Assembly: GCA_009780585.1 (NCBI GenBank)
Contig: WQZS01000001.1
Span: 186,001 to 250,000 of the forward strand
Length of the DNA stretch: 64,000 nt
Direction of reading: 5' to 3'
Origin: Defluviitaleaceae bacterium
GTDB taxonomy: Bacteria; Bacillota; Clostridia; Lachnospirales; WQUN01
Shown here one piece after another: positions 41,704-41,835 of the stretch. Each line of letters begins with the position of its first letter. The stretch's first letter is position 1. Position numbers and translations under genes: made by a program. A model generated the notes under the pieces. That model did not search any database. It was not told where the DNA came from and saw only the letters and a list, made by a program, of their open reading frames with translations.

Positions 41704-41745
41704 AAAAAAATAACCGTTCGCCGTGACTGCGTCACGGCGAACGGT
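41704..41745 (-). terminator. Strong terminator between the leader repeat and the TIR gene
   Basis: A perfect 15-bp stem (ACCGTTCGCCGTGAC and complement) with a 3-base loop is followed on the minus strand by TATTTTTTT. Only 24 bases remain to the TIR start codon, so TIR transcription needs read-through or a promoter inside the terminator. Confidence 0.85.
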
Positions 41746-41772
41746 CTGTATTGTTAAACGGAAAACGCCTAG

Positions 41773-41835
41773 CTATGCTTGCTTGCTTGCTTGCTTGCTT
41801 GCTTGCTTGCTTGCTTGCTTGCTTGCTTGCTGCAC
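41773..41835 (-). CDS. Short leader ORF made of the tetranucleotide repeat
   Basis: From GTG 41835, with GGGGGTG 5 bases upstream, a 20-codon frame reads through the repeat as (A-S-K-Q) units and stops at TAG 41773. A change in repeat number would shift its frame and stop position. Whether it is translated is not known. Confidence 0.3.
   Translation of the reverse strand: MQQASKQASKQASKQASKQA
41777..41831. repeat. Tetranucleotide simple repeat (GCTT), 13 units plus a partial unit
   Basis: Thirteen perfect GCTT units are followed by GCT. Repeats of this length and purity mutate by slippage and are typical of phase-variable loci. Confidence 0.97.

Follow-up and report, generated by a model that had tools for sequence, protein, structure and literature searches.

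Phase variation in gut Clostridia is mainly known from invertible DNA, and switches built on simple repeats are textbook features of small-genome pathogens. In the trp and his leader-peptide attenuators, the formation of a terminator hinges on leader translation; these attenuators sense an amino acid via ribosome stalling, whereas at the locus described here the input would be a heritable reading frame set by repeat number. The earlier note on this locus had presented phase variation coupled to attenuation as unknown from other loci, which is incorrect, as precisely this mechanism has been proven experimentally for the pil1 leader of Streptococcus gallolyticus, which is built on repeats of GCAGA (Danne et al. 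2014, PMC3894217). The pil1 evidence comprises variants, chloramphenicol, and start-codon and terminator mutants, and includes translation dependence, with stops inside the hairpin or 4 bp before it giving the ON state (PMC3894217). The AAGC/GCAA unit itself is familiar from autB and lav of Neisseria and Haemophilus (PMC5118866, PMC9022572), in which slipped-strand mispairing likewise changes the repeat; there, however, the array is part of the coding sequence of the switched gene, its effect is translational, and terminator and leader ORF are absent.

The window, a stretch of 64,000 nucleotides from a Defluviitaleaceae genome, carries a TIR gene on its minus strand that is preceded by a leader running from 41889 to 41677 in the order candidate promoter P1, Shine-Dalgarno (SD), GTG, (AAGC)13, two TAGs, terminator and TIR ATG. 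The features, read from the sequence unless another source is given in brackets, are as follows:

41932–42623, minus strand: RelB/DinJ antitoxin and PIN toxin (PIN_3) pair, outside the switch (Pfam)
41884–41889, minus strand: –35-like hexamer TTGCAA of candidate promoter P1, a moderate match (4/6 consensus bases, 17-nt spacer to the –10)
41861–41866, minus strand: –10-like hexamer TACCAT with TG extension (TGTTACCAT) of candidate promoter P1
41840–41847, minus strand: SD of the leader ORF, GGGGGTGA
41773–41835, minus strand: leader ORF at n = 13, from GTG (41835) to TAG, 20 codons (sequence, frame computation)
41777–41828, minus strand: (AAGC)13 array, devoid of stop and start codons in all frames (sequence, TRF)
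41769–41775, minus strand: two TAG stops just 3′ of the array (41775–41773 and 41771–41769), closing two of the three frames (OFF frames)
41756–41769, minus strand: post-array segment GGCGTTTTCCGTTT, predicted partner of the leader SD/start region in a helix enclosing the array (RNA fold)
41732–41734, minus strand: TGA ending the third (ON) frame, within the 5′ arm of the terminator (sequence, frame computation)
41704–41745, minus strand: intrinsic terminator with a perfect 15-bp stem, 3-nt loop and TATTTTTTT (sequence, fold)
41685–41691, minus strand: SD of the TIR gene, AGAGGTG
38998–41679, minus strand: TIR gene of 893 aa, with a Zn-ribbon-like N-terminus, TIR_2, TPRs and C-terminal RCC1 repeats (Pfam)

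The thirteen GCTT units that the earlier note had placed inside a short leader ORF with an SD are present as (AAGC)13 on the strand of the TIR gene. TRF recorded the array with period 4, 14 copies, 100% match and a score of 112, and as the sole pure tetranucleotide array within the window; for a perfect array of 52 nt, chance is no concern. The leader ORF reads GTG, CAG, C(AAGC)13 and then TAG at 41775–41773, and ATAGCTAG fills the gap between the array and the terminator stem. The terminator consists of ACCGTTCGCCGTGAC-GCA-GTCACGGCGAACGGT followed by TATTTTTTT (41745–41704), for which the folding tool counted 16 pairs, at a free energy of approximately –30 kcal/mol. Its perfect 15-bp stem had been noted before, and exactly 24 bases indeed separate the end of the U-tract (41704) from the TIR ATG (41679). 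The candidate promoter P1 matches 8/12 consensus bases and has a TG extension, which places it under the 9/12 threshold of the promoter scan. No Rfam family was found at the window locus or at 19 related loci, tRNAs aside, so that the leader is not a known riboswitch.

Because the AAGC unit contains no stop in any frame and its 4 nt are not a multiple of 3, the unit number modulo 3 fixes where the leader ORF ends. Frame computation at n = 13 places the TAG 1 nt past the array, approximately 30 nt ahead of the hairpin. At n = 14 the leader frame stays open until the TGA in the 5′ half of the terminator stem, and at n = 15 the second TAG ends the leader ORF 5 nt past the array, approximately 26 nt before the stem. 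The leader is therefore predicted to be ON only at n = 14 + 3k, and the assembled 13-unit state is predicted to be OFF. This exact computation bears out the suggestion that a change in repeat length would move the end of the leader ORF relative to the terminator.

This anatomy closely resembles that of pil1, as both leaders combine a promoter (at the TIR locus the candidate P1) with a short leader ORF that has an SD and a perfect internal simple sequence repeat (SSR), with the stop set by unit number modulo 3 and a premature terminator before the first gene. In pil1, a stop in or just before the hairpin gives ON and a stop far upstream gives OFF, and the same is predicted for the TIR locus, the OFF distance being 49 bp in pil1 and 30 nt at the TIR locus. 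Specifically, the leader ORF that holds the SSR of the TIR locus has an SD and a start codon, the unit is not a multiple of 3, the alternative stops are far from and near the hairpin, and an intrinsic terminator separates leader and gene. The two systems differ in that pil1 has GCAGA repeats and controls a pilus, while AAGC and a TIR-TPR-RCC1 protein are found here; that two of three frames are ON in pil1, versus a predicted single one at the TIR locus; and that the TIR-locus leader has a predicted helix between its SD region and the post-array segment. By analogy, the TIR locus would work as a switch of the pil1 type, the mechanism itself being already known. What is new relative to pil1 is the breadth, the AAGC unit, the TIR target, the predicted SD-region/post-array helix and, in most relatives but not at the TIR locus, a promoter inside the leader.

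A phase-variable transcription attenuator very probably controls the TIR gene. RNA polymerase would start from P1, approximately 20 nt upstream of the short leader ORF, and a ribosome would translate the leader, (AAGC)n tract included. For two of the three frames the ribosome would meet a TAG no more than 8 nt past the array and leave, after which the 15-bp terminator would fold and transcription would end ahead of the TIR gene (OFF). In the remaining frame (n = 14, 17, ...) it would enter the 5′ arm of the terminator and block the hairpin, and the polymerase would go on to transcribe the TIR-RCC1 gene (ON). Units would be gained or lost through slipped-strand mispairing, and the state would flip heritably and reversibly within a population.

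Classic translational phase variation of the Haemophilus/Neisseria type, in which the array would belong to an N-terminal extension of TIR and its units would set the frame, is highly unlikely in comparison. AAGC/GCAA arrays do act in this way in autB and lav (PMC5118866, PMC9022572), and at n = 13 leader and TIR share one frame, which contains no further stop between the leader's TAG and the TIR ATG. However, all three leader frames stop ahead of the TIR ATG (TAG, TGA in the terminator, TAG), and the array is never in a stop-free frame with the TIR coding sequence. A translational fusion of the leader to TIR was rejected on account of these stops in all frames. Moreover, the perfect terminator and TIR's own SD intervene, and the layout of stops and terminator recurs at many unrelated genes.

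The attenuator layout is found elsewhere in the same genome, which has two further long AAGC arrays, of 17 (C9) and 21 (C15) units, arranged as at the TIR locus and each preceding a gene for a secreted LRR_5 (BspA-type) protein; the reversed control unit gave no array anywhere in the genome. Arrays of AAGC with at least 5 units were found in 23 of 392 genomes of the order and in 11 of 38 of its own family (counts that are low because many contigs end inside the array), versus three genomes for the reversed unit. At the class level, arrays of at least 6 units are rare (4/393 genomes). A scan for TTGACA-N16-44-(AAGC)4 across 84,980 species genomes yielded at least 116 stretches, mostly from MAGs and isolates; among the matches listed, these came mainly from Lachnospiraceae, Oscillospiraceae/Ruminococcus, Christensenella, Defluviitaleaceae and Erysipelotrichaceae. 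Because the motif itself selects for TTGACA, conservation of this hexamer was not counted from that scan; TTGACA was also present in 10 of the 12 order-level loci with readable upstream sequence. Downstream genes in the relatives mostly bear signal peptides (judged by eye) and often encode LRR_5 or InlB-type repeats, and leader cassettes alike in sequence can precede different genes within one genome (L063/L135).

The full layout recurs at more than 50 loci, before unrelated genes. This argues against a chance neighbourhood at the TIR locus, in which a neutral microsatellite and the terminator of the RelB-PIN operon would lie next to a TIR gene with its own promoter, a reading to which we give very little probability. 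The RelB-PIN pair is indeed on the same strand, with 96 nt between its end and the leader start, but the 24 nt from terminator to ATG include the SD and leave no room for a promoter, and the scan found none there. A TIR promoter in this gap, which the earlier note had named as an observation that would refute the switch, was accordingly looked for and rejected. A second toxin-antitoxin-like pair, consisting of a Phd-family antitoxin and a small partner ORF, lies further upstream at 43135–43763.

The earlier note had named a constant unit number across strains as a refuting observation; between orthologous sister loci, unit number is not constant. Between the source genome and G002 (L010/L012), orthologous loci with similar flanks have 21 versus 6 units; the orthologues L087 and L132, with flanks that are approximately 90% identical, have 19 versus 12; and L025 and L130, which are 95.5% identical downstream, have 6 versus 4. 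Unit number therefore differs between species.

The frame logic was assessed across 64 loci with a strong terminator 25–110 nt past the array, leaving out the Haemophilus, Neisseria and termite proteobacterial matches, in which the leader layout is absent or the repeats are coding. A frame was classed as ON unless its stop preceded the hairpin by more than 12 nt, and as OFF when the stop preceded it by at least 25 nt. A leader start was detectable in 57 of the 64 loci; an ON frame was present in all 57 and an OFF frame in 54, and none of the 57 was all-ON or all-OFF. Using dinucleotide shuffles of the spacer between array and terminator as the null, ON and OFF frames occurred together in 48 of 51 non-redundant loci versus 34.6 ± 3.3 after shuffling (0/2000 as good), and in 14/14 of the loci found without selection on leader sequence versus 9.3 expected (P = 0.0018), although P values from such shuffle tests are optimistic because the loci share ancestry, which clustering only reduces as a source of inflation. 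An SD with start codon in the open frame was found in 37 of 47 relatives (7.9 ± 2.6 in shuffles) and in 8 of the 10 members of an unbiased subset (1.7 expected), and stops were enriched within the first 12 nt past the array (72 versus 43.8 ± 4.9). The terminator begins 30–69 nt past the array in 61 of 64 loci. In 21 of 46 relatives, versus 3.7 ± 1.8 expected, the leader is preceded by an extended –10 like that of P1. In the Erysipelotrichaceae loci L145 and L150, the leader ORF starts approximately 6–7 nt after the extended –10, and the leader mRNA would be leaderless.

The anatomy thus recurs beyond chance, and these comparative frame tests support the proposal that repeat length could switch TIR expression, the ON and OFF states themselves being predictions. 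For the 57 loci, the assemblies correspond to 30 predicted OFF, 24 predicted ON and 3 intermediate states.

The whole window leader, terminator included, gave an RNA fold z of –6.7. The predicted fold joins AAACGG/AAAACGU, located around the SD, to GGCGUUUUCCGUUU past the array. Across 47 relatives, pairing between the leader start region and the post-array region of the same locus exceeded that with swapped partners (0/200) as well as that in shuffles (mean z –0.82), and TGTCAA, the complement of TTGACA, occurs in the post-array region of 6/44 relatives versus 0.4 expected. These folding models are suggestive of a helix that would hide the SD after transcription of the array, such that only a promptly initiating ribosome would count.

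Most relatives further contain a sigma-A promoter, TTGACA-N17-NANNNT, inside the leader ORF and directly before the array (L021-L026, L030, L034, L050-L165); NANNNT stands exactly 17 nt after TTGACA in 33 of 44 relatives, versus 0–4 at spacings of 10–16. Transcripts from this internal promoter would miss the leader start codon, and the simple attenuator model neither needs nor explains it; it may serve for pausing, act as a decoy or provide a second start of transcription. This conserved spacing would suit an alternative in which the array is an element at the 5′ end of a transcript, started at or inside the leader, and repeat length acts via RNA stability or promoter output, leader translation being irrelevant. 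Termite-gut betaproteobacteria (L138, L165, L072, L125, L054), which have long AAGC arrays directly after TTGACA-N17-CATAAT in the absence of the conserved leader start (SD/ATG), point in the same direction; a strong hairpin follows in some. However, the window leader sequence lacks the internal TTGACA promoter, which is therefore not required at the TIR locus. Moreover, frame structure and leader starts would be unselected under this alternative, yet both are far above chance, making it improbable, though less so than the two rival readings above.

Beyond the TIR attenuator, we consider the chances evenly balanced that gut Firmicutes widely use SSR leader attenuators as ON/OFF switches at multiple loci, a class hitherto undescribed. 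The common cassette would comprise an upstream promoter, a leader ORF, an embedded sigma-A promoter that immediately precedes the array (and may cause a pause that couples ribosome and polymerase), a helix that hides the SD after the array is made, and a terminator, with AAGC, CGAA and AGAGC as units in similar settings. No description of such a class in Clostridia was found in the open-licence literature, and the class is easily missed because arrays break short-read assemblies. If the leaders behave as predicted, stochastic switching via transcription attenuation would occur in dozens of uncultured commensal lineages, affecting secreted LRR/BspA-like and other proteins and, at the window locus, the TIR protein; counting the units in long reads or metagenomes would directly give the predicted ON/OFF state.

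Other units were observed in comparable positions. CGAA arrays lie behind the TTGACA leader motif at L172 (G029), L174 (G287) and L173 (G026), the first with SD and ATG as in AAGC leaders. In L150 (422–461), an AGAGC array (pil1-type GCAGA) behind the TTGACA motif belongs to a leader that has stops and a terminator, as does its AAGC paralogue. A further AGAGC array, in L026 (1275–1324), is located where the reading frame that follows an AAGC leader begins, giving two tracts in series.

PADLOC returned no defence-system match for the TIR-TPR-RCC1 protein. In an ortholog comparison, TIR orthologues in two other genera were found to lack the array, indicating a gain (or loss) of the switch that is recent compared with the TIR gene; as judged from these sequences, the switch is not conserved with this gene. 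One TIR orthologue without array, L168 (G025), shows an apparent extended –10 and a hairpin with U-tract close before the ATG, perhaps an attenuator without switch. The TIR gene of the window also contains internal tandem repeats (114 bp × 4.6, in the RCC1 repeats, and 153 bp × 2; window positions 39185–39709 and 39988–40294), which are a second possible source of length variation.
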